From a virus: 22,129 bases of DNA. The translations under genes were made by a program, and so were the position numbers. The notes below the pieces were generated by a model, which made no database searches, was not told where the DNA came from, and saw only the letters and a program-made list of their open reading frames with translations. Below, in pieces: positions 3,528 to 20,681 of the stretch. Each line of letters starts with the position of its first letter. Position 1 is the stretch's first letter. Location: positions 1-22,129 of the IMG/VR virus record IMGVR_UViG_3300034198_019889; one strand, written 5' to 3'.

Positions 3528-4697
3528 CTACGGTGCCATTCCCATGATTAGCTGTCTATGGTTTTCCGCGCCTAGGCCATGAATTAAAAATTGTTCAGCT
3601 TGAAGCTTGGGTCCAGGATTATTTCTTTGGCGTCCAGTACCAGTGTTAATTCCCAGGATTACGCAGTTTTGCTCAACATGGCGCAAGCTATCTAGTAAAT
3701 ATCTGGGGTTCATTTTAGCAGTAAAATTTTCACTGCTAGTTTGACTTTCGGTTGCAATTGTGTCGGCTGCGCTTGCGGCGTCATTTGTGGAAGCAACAGA
3801 AAGATCGCCAGTTTCTTTCGCGTAACTAATAGTTACATATCCAGTTTGACCGGAAGCAGCATTGCTAACAATTAAACAACGCTCAAGAGCTTCTATCAAG
3901 TCTTGGCGCTTGAGTAAAATCGTATTCTTGCAAGTCTCAGGAATCAAGCCGCTAACTTCTGGGTAGGGATCAGCAAAAAGCGATGTTATTATCGAAACCT
4001 CGCCAGTCCTAAAAAGCGCATGTGATTTTGTTTGTGTTAAAAACACTAAATCATTGTCAGCAAGTCCCAATTTTTGTAATTCATTTACGGTTTCACTTGG
4101 AACAGTAAATGCAAGCTCGCCCGTTTCAGCACCTTTTACGGTAAAAACTGATATGCGGTGTCCATCGGTAGCGGATAACTGCAGGTCAGAGTTTTTTGCA
4201 AGAAAATTAACCCCATACAACATTGTCCTTAAACCCGGAGAAGAAGCGGCAGCAAAACTAACTGCTTGCATTGCATTCCTTAGGAGTCCATACTTAAAAA
4301 ATACTAGCTCTAAATCGTTGTCTATTTCAGGTAAAATTGGATAATCTTTGGCTTCAAATGCAATTGCAAGTGAATACCGACCTTCGCCAGCATATATCGC
4401 AAGCTCGCCAGTCCCAGAATCCTCAAGCCGAACCATTGTTCCACCAGCAAGGGCGCCTACCAACCTCGTAAGCATTGCGCCTGGGGCAATACAAGAGCCC
4501 GCAGTTTCCACGATTGCGGCGGTTTCGCGGCGGACGGCCACAGCAAGATCGTAACCCGTGACAGTGAGGCGGTCGCCGTCAGCGGTTAGCAGGAGCCCCG
4601 AGAGCACGTTGGGAGCCCCTCGCCCGCCCAGGGCCCGACTGGAACCTCTCAGGGCGGCCAGAAGCGCCGCCTGGGGCACGGAGACATTGAAAGCCAT
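3528..4697 (-). CDS. dnaN: DNA polymerase III beta subunit homologue (sliding clamp)
   Basis: A 389-residue leftward gene, close to the 360-390 residues usual for bacterial beta clamps. Diagnostic stretches are LRTMLYGVNF and LSATDGHRISVF in the middle domain (bacterial clamps have ATDGHRLA there), LFADPYPEVSGLIPE at the third-domain boundary (usually DYRRVLP), and the C-terminal LIMGMAP (usually MPMR/L). These support a three-domain ring clamp that tethers polymerase to DNA. ATG at 4697 overlaps the TGA of the small upstream gene, so the two are likely translated together. Phage-borne clamps of the bacterial dnaN type are uncommon; most phages that carry clamps have gp45-like ones. The N-terminal third (4490-4697) is clearly more GC-rich than the rest, hinting at a mosaic origin. 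Confidence 0.93.
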   Translation of the reverse strand: MAFNVSVPQAALLAALRGSSRALGGRGAPNVLSGLLLTADGDRLTVTGYDLAVAVRRETAAIVETAGSCIAPGAMLTRLVGALAGGTMVRLEDSGTGELAIYAGEGRYSLAIAFEAKDYPILPEIDNDLELVFFKYGLLRNAMQAVSFAAASSPGLRTMLYGVNFLAKNSDLQLSATDGHRISVFTVKGAETGELAFTVPSETVNELQKLGLADNDLVFLTQTKSHALFRTGEVSIITSLFADPYPEVSGLIPETCKNTILLKRQDLIEALERCLIVSNAASGQTGYVTISYAKETGDLSVASTNDAASAADTIATESQTSSENFTAKMNPRYLLDSLRHVEQNCVILGINTGTGRQRNNPGPKLQAEQFLIHGLGAENHRQLIMGMAP

Positions 4698-4858
4698 CAG
4701 TAGCCCCTCCGCAGGCGCTCAAGGGTCGCCAGGACGCCGCGTAATTCATCCGATTCGGCGATAGTCCCGCCACCAACGGACTCGTGTGCTGCCATCAGGT
4801 CCAAAACCCCAGCGATGGCCTCTCGATACTGCCGATTTCGGACATCAAATTCAGTCAT
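4697..4858 (-). CDS. Small protein coupled to the clamp gene (53 aa)
   Basis: Leftward gene whose TGA (4699-4697) overlaps the clamp ATG as TGATG. The start chosen is ATG at 4858; the frame can also be opened at a TTG at 4912, which would add 18 residues. The protein looks like one or two helices (EFDVRNRQYREAIAGVLDLM, then ELRGVLATLERLRRGY) joined by a glycine-containing loop. I recognise no family. The tight coupling to dnaN suggests a clamp partner or regulator, but that is inference from position only. Confidence 0.55.
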   Translation of the reverse strand: MTEFDVRNRQYREAIAGVLDLMAAHESVGGGTIAESDELRGVLATLERLRRGY

Positions 4859-4920
4859 ACCAGTTTGTTTCGTTGACCTTTCTACGTTCGCACGGGCGAA
4901 AGCCTTTGTCAACCACGTTT

Positions 4921-5189
4921 TGTTACGGCTCTCCCGATTTTGTTACGCCACCGTAACGGGTAAAAACCCAGTCACCGACTACTTTTGTTACGTTGTTACG
5001 TTTGTTACGGTAGAAAGAAAGAGAAAGAGAGAGAGGGAGGGGGGAAAGGGGTCCTGTTTTCCCTTACGTGTCTTTGGTGTTGTCTTTCGACCGTAACAGG
5101 CGTAACAACGTAACAAACCCTGTCATGCCAATAGATTTGGGGTGTTACGGTGGGTGTTACACCCCCTTTTTGACCGCCCAGGCGTAACA
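4921..5189. other. Iteron-rich noncoding region, candidate replication origin
   Basis: The longest clearly noncoding stretch in the window (about 4859-5211) lies between the clamp operon and the primase-helicase gene. It carries about twelve copies of TGTTAC(G) or its complement: forward at 4921, 4941, 4986, 4994, 5003, 5143 and 5155; reverse at 4952, 5092, 5101, 5109 and 5183. One pair forms GTTACG-CCAC-CGTAAC at 4942-4957. Between the inner sets lies a 40-base run of purines (5012-5051). Iterons next to a replication-initiation gene, plus a strand-asymmetric tract, are typical of phage and plasmid origins. It could instead be an operator cluster or a partition site. Confidence 0.7.
4984..5117. 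repeat. Inverted 34-bp arms with mirrored triple TGTTACG arrays
   Basis: The left arm (4984-5017) and the reverse complement of the right arm (5084-5117) agree at 31 of 34 positions. The left arm has TGTTACG at 4986, 4994 and 5003 (steps of 8 and 9). The right arm has CGTAACA at 5092, 5101 and 5109 (steps of 9 and 8), an exact mirror. Both arms end inward in GGT-x-GAAAG. The 66-base centre holds most of the purine run and a following pyrimidine-rich part. Confidence 0.9.
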
Positions 5190-5211
5190 AAACCTGTTTC
5201 GCTGAAAAGCC

Positions 5212-7887
5212 TTACGACAGCAGGGATCTTGGAATTGCAATCGCCCTGGTGCTGCTCGATAAGCCCTGAAACCGCGTGACACCCCAACGCTGCGCACCGG
5301 GTAGCGAAGCCAGCAAATTCGTCCAGCCGCAAGCCGCCCATGCGGTGTCGCGTAACAGCAGCGACACCCCCTTGGCGGTCGTAGAGACGAGTAAAAATTC
5401 GGCCTCGACCTTTAAGCCATGCCTCCCCAGCTCAGCCTTCGCCTGGCTTGCGGTCAGGGGGTCACTGGGATCCCCCAGGCCGCCAGCGGCAACGCAGGCC
5501 ACCAATTCGCCCACGGTTCGCCGCACGTCACCCGAACCCGTTTCCACCCGTAGCCGCGCCTGGAGAATCGTTTGCAGGCAGTCATTTTGGTCGCCGCCGC
5601 GCTCATCGCGGCCACTAGCGCCCTCCTCAAGCCCGCAAGCCCGCAACATTTTAAGTGCCTGATCGGCGGTAGGCGGCACTTGGTTGGAGAGCATCCAGGC
5701 GCCAGCCAGCAGGGCCCCAATCTGATCACCAGCCGCAGCACCCGAAAGCTCAATGGCGGCAACTTCCGAAAAAACACGAGCAGATTCCCGTACCTGTGGA
5801 ATTAAATTGACCATCCGCGCAACAAGCTGTCTGCCGGTGTTTTTTGTTATAGACTTCAATAAATCAGATTTAAGCTCCTTCCAGTGCTCAGCTTTTGCCT
5901 CTGGCGTTAATTCATCTGGTATTCTCAGCATCAAAACAGAAAACCTACGTCTGTCCGCACCTTGAACCAATGCAACACTGATACTGGATAACATAAACAT
6001 TGATCTGATATTAAACATCATTGCCTCACCACTAACTGAACCCTTAACAGTTACCCCGCGTGATTCCGAGGAAGATATGCGAGCCAAGGACAAAACACCC
6101 TGAACCTTTCCAGCATCAACCCGTCCATTTGACTCTGCTTCGTCCTGAATTACGGGTATTCCATCACTTTTCAACATTTGCCTGATACCAGCCTCTGAAG
6201 ATTCCTGACCTTTCAAAACAAGGGCAATATCCGACAGTAAAGGATTAACAAATAAATTCATTAACTGAGTCTTGCCGGATCCCTGTACCGCATTTAACCA
6301 AATGTGTGGCCGCCAGTCCAGGGCTCCGCAAATAGGCGCCAAAGCCGTCCAGCCAGCTAAAAGCACCCCAGAAGATTTTGATTCCCAATGAAATCTTTCA
6401 GATAATTCAAGTAAATTAGCTCCCTCTTGATCACTTAACGGCTCAGCAGAGCCAGGACCATCGCGCCTTGGTAGTCTTTGATAAATGTAATCAGATACGG
6501 GAGGATTTAGTACGGGATAAGGTTTACCATCAACAATCAATCTGTCGCCAAGGTGAAAAACAACACGACCCTCATCCCACCATGCGCCAACGCCACGAAT
6601 GCGAGAGCTATCGTAACAACCAATTCGATGCTGCTCCCTAAATAATTCACTTACGCATTGCTGCCAATTTATACCAATAAACTCTCCATCTTTATTAAAC
6701 CTTGGATACTGTTTTGACCAGTATTCAATAGGCGCAACCCTAAACAAATTCATAGGTCCATGCGAAGCTCCGCTTATACTTGTAACCTGACCACTATCGC
6801 CGGGTTGATAATAGTATTCGCTACCACTAAAGCCAAGTAGTGTATATGGTTTTGTATTGCCTTGATTACTAGCTGCATTGACTACCTGATCGTCGCCGTT
6901 GCCGCCAGAATTGCCTACCGCAGAAAGGTTTTCGCTCAAATAGGTTGTGGCATCAGACTCCGACCAGTCCGCAGCATCTGCAATGTCCCAACCCTGGGGG
7001 GCATCCTTTGGTGGTGCAACTATACCTATCGAGCCTGCGCCTATACCGCTTAAAATCGAAGCCAGCTTCTTGGCGCATTGCGCACCATCATCGTCGGCGT
7101 CGGGCCAGATCGCTACGTTTCGGCCAGCAAGAGGCGTCCAGTCAACATGGCCTACCGCTTTTGAGCCATTAGACCACGTAATGACTACGTGATCGGGAAA
7201 AAGTAATCTAGCCGCATCCCAAGTAGTTTCACCTTCGACTATCAAAATATCTAAATCGGGTCGAATCAGTAACTCTTCTTGCCCCAATAGCGGCCTTGGT
7301 GACGGCCACTCAGACGTAAACGGATCTGTCCTTTTAGGAAAATGCCAGCCATTGTCTAGCCACGTTCTATGTACTAATGTTTTGCTTGGCTTACCCCTCT
7401 TGTCCGGTTTTTTCTTGTTCTCATATCTCTGTATCCAATATAACTGTTCGCCGTTGGTATTCCGATAACACCACTGAGCTACCGAGCGACCCATCATCGG
7501 CGGTTTTGCGTCAACAGGCGGTTTTTCTGGTATCCGTGCTGGTTTAACGTTTTTTTTAACTGCTGCTATAGGTTTTTCTCCCAAAAATTGCTCAACCTCG
7601 TTAGCCGCCTCCTTGAACGTCCACTGGCGAGACTTCATCAAAAGGTCAACGCCAGAGATAGGGCCTCCGTTCTCACCAGGGCCACCGCATTGATTGCAAT
7701 AACCTCCCCCGTCACCCTTTCCAGCCGAGTCGTCCCATCGCCAGCGATCAGCGTCGGGCCTATCCCCGCAAAGCGGACAAGGACCATGCCGACCATCCAA
7801 GAAAGAGGAATCTATTCGGCCCAGTCCGGTAAGAATCTCAAACCACTTGCCGTTAGCTGTAGCAAGTAAATTTTTGTTACTTGGCAC
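5212..7887 (-). CDS. Primase-helicase (zinc finger, Toprim, ATPase)
   Basis: An 891-residue leftward gene with a GTG start at 7887 that overlaps the TAG of the RHH gene (TAGTG). An N-terminal zinc finger of P4-alpha/gp4 primase type has Cys37, Cys40, Cys64 and Cys67. A Toprim-like domain follows with ILIVEGE (214-220) and WPDADDDG (261-268), giving the Glu and Asp residues that bind metal. After a linker, the ATPase has Walker A AVQGSGKT (533-540) and a Walker B-like IPVIQDEAE (577-585), as in DUF927-type helicases. It should unwind DNA and lay primers at phage or plasmid forks. The last 190 residues (5212-5780) are strikingly GC-rich and less conserved in appearance. It ends next to the TGTTACG cluster, so it may act there. 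No polymerase domain was seen. Confidence 0.88.
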   Translation of the reverse strand: MPSNKNLLATANGKWFEILTGLGRIDSSFLDGRHGPCPLCGDRPDADRWRWDDSAGKGDGGGYCNQCGGPGENGGPISGVDLLMKSRQWTFKEAANEVEQFLGEKPIAAVKKNVKPARIPEKPPVDAKPPMMGRSVAQWCYRNTNGEQLYWIQRYENKKKPDKRGKPSKTLVHRTWLDNGWHFPKRTDPFTSEWPSPRPLLGQEELLIRPDLDILIVEGETTWDAARLLFPDHVVITWSNGSKAVGHVDWTPLAGRNVAIWPDADDDGAQCAKKLASILSGIGAGSIGIVAPPKDAPQGWDIADAADWSESDATTYLSENLSAVGNSGGNGDDQVVNAASNQGNTKPYTLLGFSGSEYYYQPGDSGQVTSISGASHGPMNLFRVAPIEYWSKQYPRFNKDGEFIGINWQQCVSELFREQHRIGCYDSSRIRGVGAWWDEGRVVFHLGDRLIVDGKPYPVLNPPVSDYIYQRLPRRDGPGSAEPLSDQEGANLLELSERFHWESKSSGVLLAGWTALAPICGALDWRPHIWLNAVQGSGKTQLMNLFVNPLLSDIALVLKGQESSEAGIRQMLKSDGIPVIQDEAESNGRVDAGKVQGVLSLARISSSESRGVTVKGSVSGEAMMFNIRSMFMLSSISVALVQGADRRRFSVLMLRIPDELTPEAKAEHWKELKSDLLKSITKNTGRQLVARMVNLIPQVRESARVFSEVAAIELSGAAAGDQIGALLAGAWMLSNQVPPTADQALKMLRACGLEEGASGRDERGGDQNDCLQTILQARLRVETGSGDVRRTVGELVACVAAGGLGDPSDPLTASQAKAELGRHGLKVEAEFLLVSTTAKGVSLLLRDTAWAACGWTNLLASLPGAQRWGVTRFQGLSSSTRAIAIPRSLLS

Positions 7888-8090
7888 TACTCGCCCTGTC
7901 GCGGTTTACTGATAAAGATGGAACATCGTATGACTGGCCTTTCAGGAACAATCAGATTGCGAATCACAGCGGCCCGTGATTCCTCTGATTCCTCTGGCTC
8001 ATGACGGCTGTCAAGCCAGGCAACCATCCTCGGTGAAAGCCGGAACGTAAAAATTTCCATTGGATTGGAGGGTTGTACCTTGGCCACCAT
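7887..8090 (-). CDS. Ribbon-helix-helix (CopG/Arc-like) protein
   Basis: Leftward gene whose TAG overlaps the primase GTG start. The core MEIFTFRLSPRMVAWLDSR is a typical RHH strand and first helix, and EESRAAVIRNLI is the second helix, so it should dimerise and bind DNA in the major groove. I give ATG at 8090 (67 residues); ATG at 8060, right at the strand, gives 57 residues and is favoured if the -10-like TGCTATGGT at 8086-8094 is a real promoter. A small RHH protein encoded directly upstream of and overlapping a replication gene recalls CopG-RepB copy control in plasmids. It may repress its own promoter and the divergent one at 8100-8128. The targets are unknown. Confidence 0.72.
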   Translation of the reverse strand: MVAKVQPSNPMEIFTFRLSPRMVAWLDSRHEPEESEESRAAVIRNLIVPERPVIRCSIFISKPRQGE

Positions 8091-8094
8091 AGCA
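8086..8094 (-). promoter_or_regulatory. Putative leftward extended -10 for the RHH-primase operon
   Basis: TGCTATGGT on the minus strand matches the extended -10 form TGnTATnnT. It overlaps the ATG at 8090, so if used the RHH protein would start at 8060. No good -35 is visible. It lies back to back with the rightward promoter at 8100-8128. Confidence 0.35.
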
Positions 8095-8099
8095 GTTGG

Positions 8100-8128
8100 T
8101 TGCAAGCGAAGCGAATACGTGCTATGTT
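8100..8128 (+). promoter_or_regulatory. Rightward promoter for the 8155-15249 operon
   Basis: TTGCAA (8100-8105), a 17-base spacer and TATGTT (8123-8128), preceded by TGC to give an extended -10. The predicted start near 8135 leaves a leader of about 20 bases before the ATG at 8155. It is the only good promoter before a long run of overlapping genes. A GCGAA-GCGAA direct repeat in the spacer (8106-8115) could bind a regulator. Confidence 0.6.
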
Positions 8129-8154
8129 TCACAGGCATCACGCAAAACCGCCCA

Positions 8155-8439
8155 ATGCCCCTAAAACAGTTTAAGCCAGGCGCCGACGCTTTTCGGCATC
8201 CATGCACGCTGGCCGAACCGAACTGCCGAGTTCGTATTATTGAAAAAATTACTAACGATCCAAAGGTTACGGTGACCTTAAATTCCGGCAGAAAAGTTCA
8301 AGTTAAGCCTTTTCCTCGTTACAGAGTTTGTGACGTGGATGGCAACGTTTTTATCATAGGCAAAATTTGCCTATCTCTCAACCCGATTACCTACAGCCCG
8401 AGGGGTACTTATTCCATTATGGTCGGCTGGAAGCCATGA
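8155..8439 (+). CDS. Hypothetical protein, first gene of the rightward operon (94 aa)
   Basis: ATG at 8155 lies about 20 bases downstream of the predicted transcription start; the longer frame back to 8065 would cross the promoter and the RHH gene. The protein has an extended N-terminus, then alternating strands (VRIIEKI, VTVTLNSGRKVQVK, VFIIGKI, YSIMVGW), which suggests a small all-beta barrel. The first gene of an early phage operon is often a host-takeover protein, but nothing here identifies its function. Its TGA overlaps the next ATG as ATGA. Confidence 0.62.
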   Translation: MPLKQFKPGADAFRHPCTLAEPNCRVRIIEKITNDPKVTVTLNSGRKVQVKPFPRYRVCDVDGNVFIIGKICLSLNPITYSPRGTYSIMVGWKP

Positions 8440-14905: not shown

Positions 14906-15249
14906 CGCAATCTATAGCTTGGTCACGCCCCTATGTAGCCCAAAGAATGGATGATAGCGCTCCATTACTAGCCAAGCGTTTTCAATTGCTATTATATTTC
15001 AACTCTAGCAAGCTTTTAGGTAAAGTTATTTCTTACGGGACAGATAGGGACATAATCGAAGGAGCTATTGGATCTGAGCTTAGCAACCTATGGAGCCTAA
15101 AAGAATATGCTAAAATGACACTAACTAGAGCGAGAAACTTTGCCTCAACAGACAGAATAATTGTTTTGATTGAAAACCAAAAAGAATTGGCAAAAGTCGA
15201 ACCACACCTAGGGTTTGTGGTTGAGCAATTTATCAATACGCTAGACTAG
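14902..15249 (+). CDS. Hypothetical protein (115 aa), last gene of the operon
   Basis: Starts at an ATGA overlap with the methyltransferase. The product is mostly helical, with LLLYFNSSKLLGKVI, then SNLWSLKEYAKMTLTRARNF, and a C-terminal LGFVVEQFINTL. No known family. It closes the long overlapping operon; the next 50 bases are noncoding and carry the promoter of the following unit. No rho-independent terminator is visible directly after it. Confidence 0.58.
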   Translation: MTQSIAWSRPYVAQRMDDSAPLLAKRFQLLLYFNSSKLLGKVISYGTDRDIIEGAIGSELSNLWSLKEYAKMTLTRARNFASTDRIIVLIENQKELAKVEPHLGFVVEQFINTLD

Positions 15250-15296
15250 CTCAAACGCGACAGGTCCCACCAAAGCGATTTATTTGCGGAAATACC

Positions 15297-15305
15297 TGCT
15301 ATAAT
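15297..15305 (+). promoter_or_regulatory. Extended -10 promoter of the stand-alone unit
   Basis: TGCTATAAT is a perfect extended -10. The -35 region (around 15277) is poor (GATTTA), as is usual for extended -10 promoters. The expected start near 15312 gives an almost leaderless message if ATG 15316 is used, or a 34-base leader if ATG 15346 is used. Confidence 0.65.
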
Positions 15306-15315
15306 AAGCACGGCA

Positions 15316-15516
15316 ATGCAGCCCGCATTTCCCTCGGTCCCTAAAATGGACTTTTCCTTTTACAGATTCATTGTTTCAATGGATCTCAAACTCCACCGCA
15401 TTTCAGAGAGCATGTCCGTACTTTCCGACCGCCTGATTGCCGTTCTTGATTTTTTCAAGACTGGCGAAGCCAACCTTAAGCAGGAGCTGGCATCTGTTAA
15501 AGAAAAATTGCTGTAG
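15316..15516 (+). CDS. Coiled-coil protein, 5' part before a -1 frameshift
   Basis: A 66-codon frame from ATG 15316 (ATG 15346, MDFSFYRFIVSMDLKL, is a plausible alternative start) to TAG at 15514-15516. The segment HRISESMSVLSDRLIAVLDF and the following LKQELASVKEKL have heptad-like leucine spacing. Coding character does not end at the TAG: it continues in the -1 frame (see 15501-15701), so this is probably the N-terminal part of one protein of about 120-130 residues. It is transcribed from its own promoter and ends in a strong terminator, so it looks like a moron-type insertion between operons. Proteins of this kind in cyanophages are uncharacterised; a structural or scaffolding role is possible but unproven. 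Confidence 0.6.
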   Translation: MQPAFPSVPKMDFSFYRFIVSMDLKLHRISESMSVLSDRLIAVLDFFKTGEANLKQELASVKEKLL

Positions 15517-15701
15517 CCCTTGGCAATGATGCAGCCGACGCTGAAACAGTTGCAGCGGCAAAGGCTGACGCCGAACTTGCAAAAACTCAGGCCGCTGATG
15601 CCGTTGCCAAGGCCGAGGGGCTTCAGGCGATGGTTGACAAAGATGCCAGCGAGGACGCAATTATCGCCGCTGCCCTTGAAAACTCTGGCGCTCCTGTCTA
15701 A
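15501..15701 (+). pseudogene. -1 frame continuation of the coiled-coil gene
   Basis: From 15501 to the TAA at 15699-15701 the frame shifted by -1 encodes IAVALGNDAADAETVAAAKA followed by further Ala/Asp/Glu/Lys repeats (ADAELAKTQAADAVAKAEG), ending ALENSGAPV. It has no start codon of its own near 15501. The composition and repeat pattern follow naturally from the upstream KEK helix. The switch must occur between 15501 and 15514, where an A5 run (15503-15507) lies. It may be an indel, an assembly error in a homopolymer, or programmed -1 slippage. The heptamer is not a textbook slippery site. Confidence 0.6.
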
Positions 15702-15727
15702 AATTCAAAGGTCATGGGTTTACTCCC

Positions 15728-15760
15728 AAGCCCAGAGAGGTGATAGTCTCTGGGCTTTTT
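15728..15760 (+). terminator. Strong rho-independent terminator
   Basis: AAGCCCAGAGA (15728-15738) pairs perfectly with TCTCTGGGCTT (15747-15757) around an 8-base loop, followed by T's to 15760. It lies 26 bases after the frame-shifted stop at 15701. It separates the stand-alone unit from the recombination operon. Confidence 0.92.
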
Positions 15761-16996: not shown

Positions 16997-18148
16997 ATGA
17001 CCTTTGAAATTAAAGTCGCAAAACGACTTGGCGCTAGACTCCTGATTCAGCTTTCCGGCGTCAGCGGATCTGGCAAGACCTATTCCGCCTTGCAATTGGC
17101 TTACGGTCTTGCCGGTGGTGACAGTACCAAGATCATAGGCATTGACACCGAAAACAGGAGAATGAGTCTTTACTCTGATTGCCTTCCAAACGCAGAGCCA
17201 TTTCGTGTTCTTGAATTTTTCTCTCCATTTTCACCCGCTCGATACATTGAAGCCATTAGTGCCGCTTGCAGTGCTGGCGCCGAGGTTATCGTCATTGATT
17301 CTGTTTCTCACGAATGGGAATCGGAGGGCGGTTGCGAATGGATCGCAAATAATTCAGTTGACCGTTACGGTGTTAAGTCAAAAGTAGCAGACTGGAAAAC
17401 TGCTAAACGCGAGCATAAACGTTTTATGACAAACATGCTTCAGTGTTCGGCGCATATTATTGCTTGCACGCGAGCAAGGGAAAAAACAGATTTTACAAAT
17501 CCTAAGGTGCCAGTATCATTGGGAGTGCAACCAATTCAAGAAAAAAACTTTAGCTTTGAAGCTACCGTTTCTTTGATGATGGAAGATGGCGGCAAAAGCC
17601 AAAGTGTCTTGAAATGTCCGGCTGAATTATTGACAGTCTTGGGTCGAGGCACTAATTATATTACTGCCACAGATGGTGCATTATTGCGACAATGGGTAGA
17701 TGGTGGCGACACAATTGATCAAGAGGTTGAAAGAAGTCGCGGCTTGCTTCTTAATGCAGCAGAGCAAGGCATGGAGGCCTTGAAAGCTACCGGGCAAAGC
17801 ATTGGCCCGTCTATCCGTGAGGCCCTTGGCAAGCCCTTTCTGGAGTCAGTAGCCGCCAGCGCAAAGGCCTTTGATGAAGCTCGTACCCGTCCTGGCGTTG
17901 CAACCGCTGCCGTTCCCGAGCCTTTGGTGCATGGCCAACCCAACGCCCACGCCAAAGAGGATCCCGAATTAACCCTTGCTGAGCGCCAAGTCCTTGGGAA
18001 AACTATCGCCTCCCTGCCGCAAGCTGCGAAAACACGCCTAATGGATGCTATCCTGGAAAGGTTCGACTTTACCACCATCAGCCAATTGAAGACTAGGGCC
18101 CATGCCAATTTTGTTGGCAACGCAAGTGGCTGGATGAGCAATGATTAA
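16997..18148 (+). CDS. RecA-fold ATPase, Sak4-like single-strand annealing protein
   Basis: A 383-residue protein with Walker A SGVSGSGKT (about 20-28), a Walker B AEVIVIDSVSHEWE (about 94-107), and a segment KREHKRFMTNMLQ with IIACTRAREK, typical of phage NTP-binding proteins of the Sak4 / AAA_24 group. These bind single-stranded DNA and promote annealing with an SSB partner. The N-terminal 230 residues hold the ATPase; the rest is a helical, more GC-rich C-terminal domain ending in a LKTRAHANFVGNASGW stretch. It follows the RecE-like gene after 10 bases and overlaps the small gene before ssb by 8 bases. Its position supports pairing with both. Confidence 0.8.
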   Translation: MTFEIKVAKRLGARLLIQLSGVSGSGKTYSALQLAYGLAGGDSTKIIGIDTENRRMSLYSDCLPNAEPFRVLEFFSPFSPARYIEAISAACSAGAEVIVIDSVSHEWESEGGCEWIANNSVDRYGVKSKVADWKTAKREHKRFMTNMLQCSAHIIACTRAREKTDFTNPKVPVSLGVQPIQEKNFSFEATVSLMMEDGGKSQSVLKCPAELLTVLGRGTNYITATDGALLRQWVDGGDTIDQEVERSRGLLLNAAEQGMEALKATGQSIGPSIREALGKPFLESVAASAKAFDEARTRPGVATAAVPEPLVHGQPNAHAKEDPELTLAERQVLGKTIASLPQAAKTRLMDAILERFDFTTISQLKTRAHANFVGNASGWMSND

Positions 18149-20249: not shown

Positions 20250-20280
20250 TTTAAAGGTCTTCCATCACAACGCCAATCAA

Positions 20281-20681
20281 TGGAAAAGCTCACCGGAAAT
20301 GCCCTCCGCGCCAAAGTGGCCGAACTGCACAAAGAAGGCGTTAGCGCCAAGGATGTTCTGACTCGGAAAACCGGCTACGTTGCCACCAAGGAGGACGGAA
20401 CCGAGCGCCTACTGTACTCAGCTTTTAGGGATGCGTACTTTGCGGCCACGGCCGGATTTGTGCCCACCGCTCAACCGGGCGTCAGGGCTGGCCGCGAACT
20501 GTCTTTTGTTGCCAAGGTCCAGAAAAATGGTCAATTGATTATTGGCCCTGGCTACCTTACCGAAGTGAAAATTGGTGCCAAATTCAAAATCACCATTTCC
20601 GATGTGGGCGAAATTTCTTTAACACCACTGCCCGCTGAAACGGAAACGGAAACGGAAACGGAAGGAGGTGCTGGCACCTGA
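20281..20681 (+). CDS. cyAbrB-like transcription regulator
   Basis: A 133-residue protein. The first half reads TGNALRAKVAELHKEGVSAK, then TGYVATKEDGTERLLYSAFRDAY, matching the N-terminal part of cyanobacterial AbrB (cyAbrB/CalA) proteins (usually CGY-x-T-x-x-G-x-x-R-x-x-x-x-x-FY-x-A). The second half, FVAKVQKNGQLIIGPGYLTE and KIGAKFKITISDVGEISL, is the AbrB-type swapped-hairpin DNA-binding domain. The tail is an ETETETETE run made by a GGAAAC hexamer repeat. Host cyAbrB proteins control nitrogen and carbon genes, so a phage copy could alter host metabolism. ATG at 20281 lies 31 bases after the sigma stop; TATGAT at 20245-20250 is a possible -10. Confidence 0.75.
20638..20661 (+). repeat. Four in-frame AAACGG hexamers
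   Basis: Four perfect AAACGG units inside the end of the cyAbrB-like gene encode an alternating Glu-Thr tail. The unit is a multiple of three, so slippage would change tail length without breaking the frame. It is the second hexanucleotide tract in the window, after (GGGGCT)10. Confidence 0.85.

Follow-up and report, generated by a model that had tools for sequence, protein, structure and literature searches.

SaPI and PICI elements with the same kind of iteron array as that described here use it as their replication origin (PMC6092414, PMC7581432). The PICI origins consist of two iteron sets around an AT-rich region immediately 3' of rep (PMC6092414), and the SaPI primases are of the archaeo-eukaryotic type (PMC7581432). 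In SCCmec, the C-terminal domain of the Cch2 helicase binds iterons that lie downstream of the gene encoding this helicase (PMC7581432). Two further systems bear on the comparison: pRN1 uses a stem-loop directly 3' of its replication gene (PMC4234260), and TcpK reads tandem 9-nt boxes via a beta-wing (PMC6137059). Here, we analysed a short-repeat array in a viral DNA sequence of 22,129 nucleotides (hereafter the window, meaning this whole stretch), and we consider it, with a probability of roughly 0.83, to be a phage replication origin whose iterons are recognised by the primase-helicase encoded by the adjacent gene.

An iteron array immediately 3' of a primase-helicase gene

The proposed initiator is a fused primase-helicase (5212-7887, minus strand) comprising a Zn-ribbon primase, a Toprim-like part, an AAA+/SF3-like helicase and a predicted C-terminal winged helix; its Zn-ribbon is followed by a match to a PHROG primase profile. 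The same strand carries a 53-aa ORF without a family match (4697-4858, ATG at 4858) and a gene for a DnaN-like DNA polymerase III beta clamp (3528-4697). The window also encodes tail, SSB and sigma-factor genes. The array sits in a gap of 353 bp between the primase-helicase stop (5212) and the start of the 53-aa ORF (4858). Because the primase, the 53-aa ORF and the clamp are all on the minus strand, the array is located immediately 3' of the primase gene. An earlier note on this DNA had placed the site between the clamp and primase-helicase genes; the 53-aa ORF lies between the array and the clamp.

The array (4921-5189) contains ten exact copies of TGTTACG/CGTAACA, on the plus strand at 4921, 4941, 4986, 4994, 5003 and 5143 and on the minus strand at 5092, 5101, 5109 and 5183, as well as near copies at 4952-4958 (CGTTACG, minus strand) and 5155-5161 (TGTTACA, plus strand). 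Across the window there are 15 exact copies versus 1.8 expected, a number reached by no shuffle, and the motif score of the array was 65.3 versus a shuffle maximum of 35.7 (motif search over 164 regions). The inverted arms to which the earlier note had drawn attention (4984-5017 and 5084-5117) do match at 31 of 34 positions, or 32 of 35 with a one-base extension, while none of 200 dinucleotide shuffles of the gap (4859-5211) gave inverted arms matching at more than 26 of 34. Each arm indeed holds three TGTTACG copies with mirrored steps: a triple distal to the primase gene (4986-5009, plus strand; copies at 4986, 4994 and 5003, steps of 8 and 9) and a facing triple proximal to it (5092-5115, minus strand; copies at 5092, 5101 and 5109, steps of 9 and 8). 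These triples had been noticed earlier, but not the larger array of ten copies to which they belong. Between them lies an 82-bp centre (5010-5091), presumably the melting or loading region, with the previously reported 40-base purine run (5012-5051, plus strand), which is a CT tract on the primase-coding strand.

Comparison with known origins

As in the SaPI and PICI systems (SaPIbov1 Rep, PriRep1 and the E. coli PICI EcCICFT073), the array lies just beyond the 3' end of the proposed initiator gene, and sets of short iterons flank a centre, here as facing triples around 82 bp. The initiators may also be alike, since the SaPI/PICI type is an AAA+/SF3 helicase with a C-terminal winged helix and the window protein is predicted to have this make-up, its models resembling the SaPI folds (7pds, 7ola, and 8tch at a middling Z of 5.1). 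However, the centre, usually AT-rich in SaPI and PICI, is in the window a purine tract without AT enrichment (AT 0.51 versus 0.51 for its region), the primase is of the Zn-ribbon/Toprim type and fused to the helicase, and the carriers are tailed phages and prophages instead of satellites. The possibility that the window is itself a SaPI/PICI satellite (a phage-inducible genome that has pri/rep, stl and int but lacks a complete set of virion genes) was rejected: the homologues Synechococcus phage S-H1, Bdellovibrio phage phi1422 and others are complete tailed-phage genomes (terminase, capsid or head, and tail genes), and the window has tail, clamp, SSB and sigma-factor genes.

Phage P4 shows a similar arrangement, in which crr lies directly 3' of the gene for the alpha primase-helicase. 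The 8-bp type 1 repeats of crr (GGTGAACA) occur in both orientations, facing each other with the same polarity as in the window array, and the crr centre has an A/G-rich tract, as does the window centre. The P4 repeat is one base longer than the 7-bp iteron of the window, and P4 differs in that its crr consists of duplicated units of 120 bp and a distant, distinct ori with the same type 1 repeats lies at 9.1-9.8 kb; in the 22-kb window, whose record is probably a fragment, no second triple array was found. The mirrored layout, which the earlier note had regarded as unusual, is that of SaPI/PICI origins and of P4 crr. The putative origin of SCCmec Cch2 likewise has its iterons (AAGTG) 3' of the helicase gene, but these are only three in number, are direct repeats and belong to a different host element.

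Facing arrays recur behind homologous primases

The window primase and clamp, used as single-sequence queries against viral contigs, gave no matches; a search with a primase alignment yielded 80 viral and 80 genomic loci. An EM motif search was then applied to the 420 bp after each primase stop (164 regions, 3,280 shuffles). The results showed that 80 of the 164 primase-3' regions scored above all shuffles, as did 7 of 930 control windows taken from these contigs, and that facing groups (two or more copies each, spacer 40-170 bp) were present in 91 of 164 versus 11 of 930. For comparing layouts, we used a set of 90 loci, defined as the regions whose motif scored higher than the 99th percentile of the shuffles. 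Since 129 of the 930 real control windows also pass this threshold, it was judged too lax, and the claims about arrays rest instead on the maximum-shuffle threshold and on the facing groups.

Throughout the 90 loci, the polarity of the facing sets is identical and the spacer between them has a median of 98 bp. Of 222 steps between iterons, 210 measure 8 or 9 bp, and the centre is AT-richer than its own region in 84 loci, the window being among the exceptions. The window has the family's longest purine run. CT tracts of at least 15 nt occur on the same strand in the centres of 16 loci (window included) and are thus not universal; with the window tract having only a 21-base imperfect mirror, the H-DNA proposed for it in the earlier note was not borne out. 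These tracts (15-40 nt, primase-coding strand; examples are those of loci L058, L079, L026 and L047) are often found near the distal iteron set. A DnaA-dependent iteron plasmid origin was rejected, since none of the 90 loci, the window included, has an exact DnaA box (TTATNCACA) in the 420 bp that follow the primase stop, and since the inner groups face each other. Near matches to the DnaA box in the same regions numbered 26 versus 18-32 in shuffles, which is no enrichment.

S-H1 has the same order of primase, gap, small ORF and clamp as the window, and its gap contains facing arms built from another repeat (CCTAACGG/CCGTTAGG, 26 nt at 85%). The earlier note would have taken the absence of conserved arms from close relatives with the same flanking genes as refuting an origin; S-H1 keeps primase, gap and clamp, and the array layout is conserved there although the motif sequence is not, so that the outcome favours an origin. 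In phi1422, eleven copies of TGTTACC/GGTAACA directly follow the primase, with triples stepped 9, 10 and 10, 9. The GC-skew profiles of the complete relatives S-H1, phi1422, KLER1-1 and Acjo_20, another check suggested earlier, had no clear extremum at the array and speak neither for nor against an origin there. A clamp gene stands beside the array in 5 of 34 non-redundant loci, S-H1 being another phage with this arrangement, and the most frequent ORF family after the array occurs in at most 7 of the 34. The genes downstream of the array thus vary between loci, and the primase is therefore its only constant partner.

No array was detected directly 3' of the primase in PY223, and ZRG1, Aeromonas phage ST4 and Yersinia phage fHe-Yen8-01 likewise lack one in that position, their repeat clusters being kilobases away. 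The last three, which are phages with more distant primases, have dense clusters of short repeats (CGCTACC, ACTGGAACA and GGCTAACG types) several kb from the primase, mostly in non-coding gaps: at 22699-23262 in ZRG1 (L007), 15165-15745 in ST4 (L013) and 17190-17541 in fHe-Yen8-01 (L017). In Synechococcus phage MinM1 (L019, 6479-9572), two different genes encode the primase (with a CHC2 zinc finger) and the helicase, and a facing GCTCACA array follows the helicase gene.

The iteron motif covaries with residue 872 of the primase-helicase

The iteron copies agree within each locus and differ between loci. The commonest motifs are CGTTACA (30) and CGTAACA (27); others include CGTCACA, CGTAAGA, CGTCAGA, CGTGAGA, CGTTAGG, CGTTCCA and CGGAACA. 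One bacterial genome, that of Cyanobium sp. Cruz-8D1, contains at least five primase-array modules (L111, L117, L119, L123 and L134) with differing iterons (CGTTACA, CGTTAGA, TGTTAGA), which suggests several coexisting replicons with separate specificities.

Every primase column was scanned for covariation with motif positions 1, 4, 6 and 7 in 78 non-redundant loci, mostly from cyanobacterial elements, with pairs matched on overall identity and motif frames fixed from the resemblance to CGTAACA and from polarity, independently of residue 872. A single column stood out: residue 872 (window numbering) covaried with position 6 of the motif, with a score reached in 0 of 300 permutations (P(max)). 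The rule was kept in 78 of 78 loci: C is accompanied by R in 60 loci and by K in two, and G by Y in seven, by H in five and by W in four. For positions 1, 4 and 7, no primase column was significant after permutation in these loci. On a tree of the helicase domain, with residue 872 left out, the motif and the residue each changed nine times. The window itself has an arginine here, encoded at 5272-5274 (minus strand) and located in the predicted wing, whereas S-H1 has W; the iteron that accompanies the L098-type protein is CGTAAGA.

The rule was also examined in a check set of loci that came from a different query, with contigs of the first set excluded; most of them are less than 50% identical to any first-set member. 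Of the 26 new non-redundant loci, 25 obeyed it. The motif frame of the sole rule-breaking locus, L187, is uncertain because there are no facing groups there. When the sets were pooled (114 non-redundant pairs), R was found with C in 83 cases and with T in one, K with C in three, and S, T or Cys with C in four. With regard to positions 6-7, Y was paired with GA in ten cases, H with GA in five and W with GG in eight. Hence R/K goes with C in 86 of 87 pairs, Y/H with GA in 15 of 15 and W with GG in 8 of 8, where the split between W-GG and Y/H-GA is a post hoc observation outside the tree-based tests. The pooled tree has 11 changes per trait, and all seven of the independent contrasts that fall on supported branches agree (sign test, p=0.016).

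Predicted structure of the primase-helicase

The full AlphaFold model (mean pLDDT 86.9, pTM 0.53) matches MCM and SF3 helicases, including the SaPI proteins PriRep1 on dsDNA (7pds) and the SaPI5 primase-helicase (7ola). The C-terminal domain, which we propose to be the iteron-binding domain, comprises codons 735-891 (5215-5685, minus strand); modelled alone, it is predicted as a winged helix (pLDDT 92.4), in which residue 872 ends strand 866-872 of a beta hairpin, the predicted wing. A Foldseek search of this model against the PDB gave no significant match. VIA re-alignment placed two DNA-binding winged helices near the top, both at middling Z: SaPIbov1 Rep 453-553, from an origin-binding helicase (8tch; Z 5.1, rmsd 3.4, 85 aligned), and the oriT-binding protein TcpK in complex with oriT (5vfx; Z 4.9, rmsd 3.6, 85 aligned). 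The resemblance to TcpK of pCW3, which acts at the TcpK boxes of oriT, would concern the winged helix as modelled; unlike the proposed initiator of the window, TcpK is an accessory protein of the relaxosome, acts at a transfer origin and is no helicase initiator. No sequence similarity emerged when the C-terminal domain was compared by profile with P4 alpha, and the solved origin-binding domain of P4 alpha is absent among the VIA matches listed, which excludes nothing.

A probable origin read by the primase-helicase, and alternative explanations

The earlier proposal of a candidate origin gains support from these data, as the facing array recurs 3' of homologous primases and a C-terminal residue covaries with the drifting motif. 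The covariation argues indirectly for binding of the iterons by the primase-helicase. Three other accounts of the repeats were weighed. The primase-helicase might bind these sites to repress or regulate the downstream genes (the clamp operon) instead of starting replication. This would suit the position of the array in a gap within a co-directional row of genes, and initiators often autoregulate. Nevertheless, the genes after the array vary between loci, the facing sets and the AT-richer spacer recur whatever gene comes next, and the same kind of array is the origin in SaPI and PICI (PMC6092414, PMC7581432), so that we regard regulation in place of an origin as improbable. Slighter still is the chance that the repeats are the operator or centromere of a small ribbon-helix-helix (RHH) protein (CopG- or omega-like) serving copy control, partition or autoregulation. 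The array does resemble omega-type centromeres, which consist of tandem 7-bp heptads in both orientations; a NikA/RHH-like protein is encoded just after the array in S-H1, and the window ORF at 7887-8207, upstream of the primase, looks RHH-like. That ORF, however, has no RHH match in Pfam, and it is a primase residue with which the motif covaries. An RHH protein as the binder, also raised in the earlier note, is disfavoured as well by the rarity of RHH-like genes behind the array (no more than 4 of 34 loci). Because no ORF family exceeds 7 of 34 loci (clamp 5, RHH-like 4), neither an RHH operator nor regulation of a clamp operon can be the general explanation.

The inverted arms could also form an RNA or cruciform hairpin, either a stem-loop origin of the pRN1 type or a structured 3' UTR, and the window region does fold better than shuffles (z -6.4), in a position like that of the pRN1 stem-loop directly after its replication gene. 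In the relatives, by contrast, complementarity is confined to the iterons. The hairpin was rejected as a general feature because the flanks between the sets are non-complementary (centre-side flanks pair at 33%) and the inner steps differ (unequal in 27 of 90 loci); it also has no Rfam match, and we give this account hardly any credence.

For the array as an origin recognised by the adjacent primase-helicase, the best reading of its type is one like the SaPI/PICI origins and P4 crr, read by a fused primase-helicase and carried by a phage. The 7-bp iterons would be read by the wing of the C-terminal winged-helix domain, with Arg872 probably contacting the G opposite the C at iteron position 6; arginine facing a G paired with C is a standard readout. 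By analogy with the known systems, the two facing iteron sets may load two helicase rings in opposite orientations. The opposed rings would then open the centre for bidirectional synthesis, and the primers for both forks could be supplied by the same primase-helicase polypeptide.

What is new here is the spread of this origin type through tailed phages, together with an apparent residue-to-base code; the probable origins of this type extend across a whole family of tailed phages and of prophages in cyanobacteria. We lean towards the broader view that many tailed phages and prophages start replication at facing-iteron origins in the SaPI style, which a fused primase-helicase of the Toprim type would read, with wing residue 872 setting position 6 and partly position 7 (R/K: C; Y/H: GA; W: GG), so that specificity would be predictable from the protein and several non-cross-reacting replicons could share a host genome. 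Natural variation supplies more than 100 initiator-iteron pairs, and because one residue tracks one base over eleven inferred switches, origin choice is testable by a simple binding assay. The link between primase and array may also serve to locate origins in uncultured phages.

Other repeats in the window

The window contains further tandem repeats. At the left end of the contig, a GGGGCT hexamer is repeated 10.8 times without error (29-93), directly followed by a 35-bp unit in 3.3 copies at 97% (94-209). A GAAACG hexamer repeated 4.5 times (20637-20663) lies within the ORF at 20280-20681, at its 3' end, where it encodes a TE-repeat tail.
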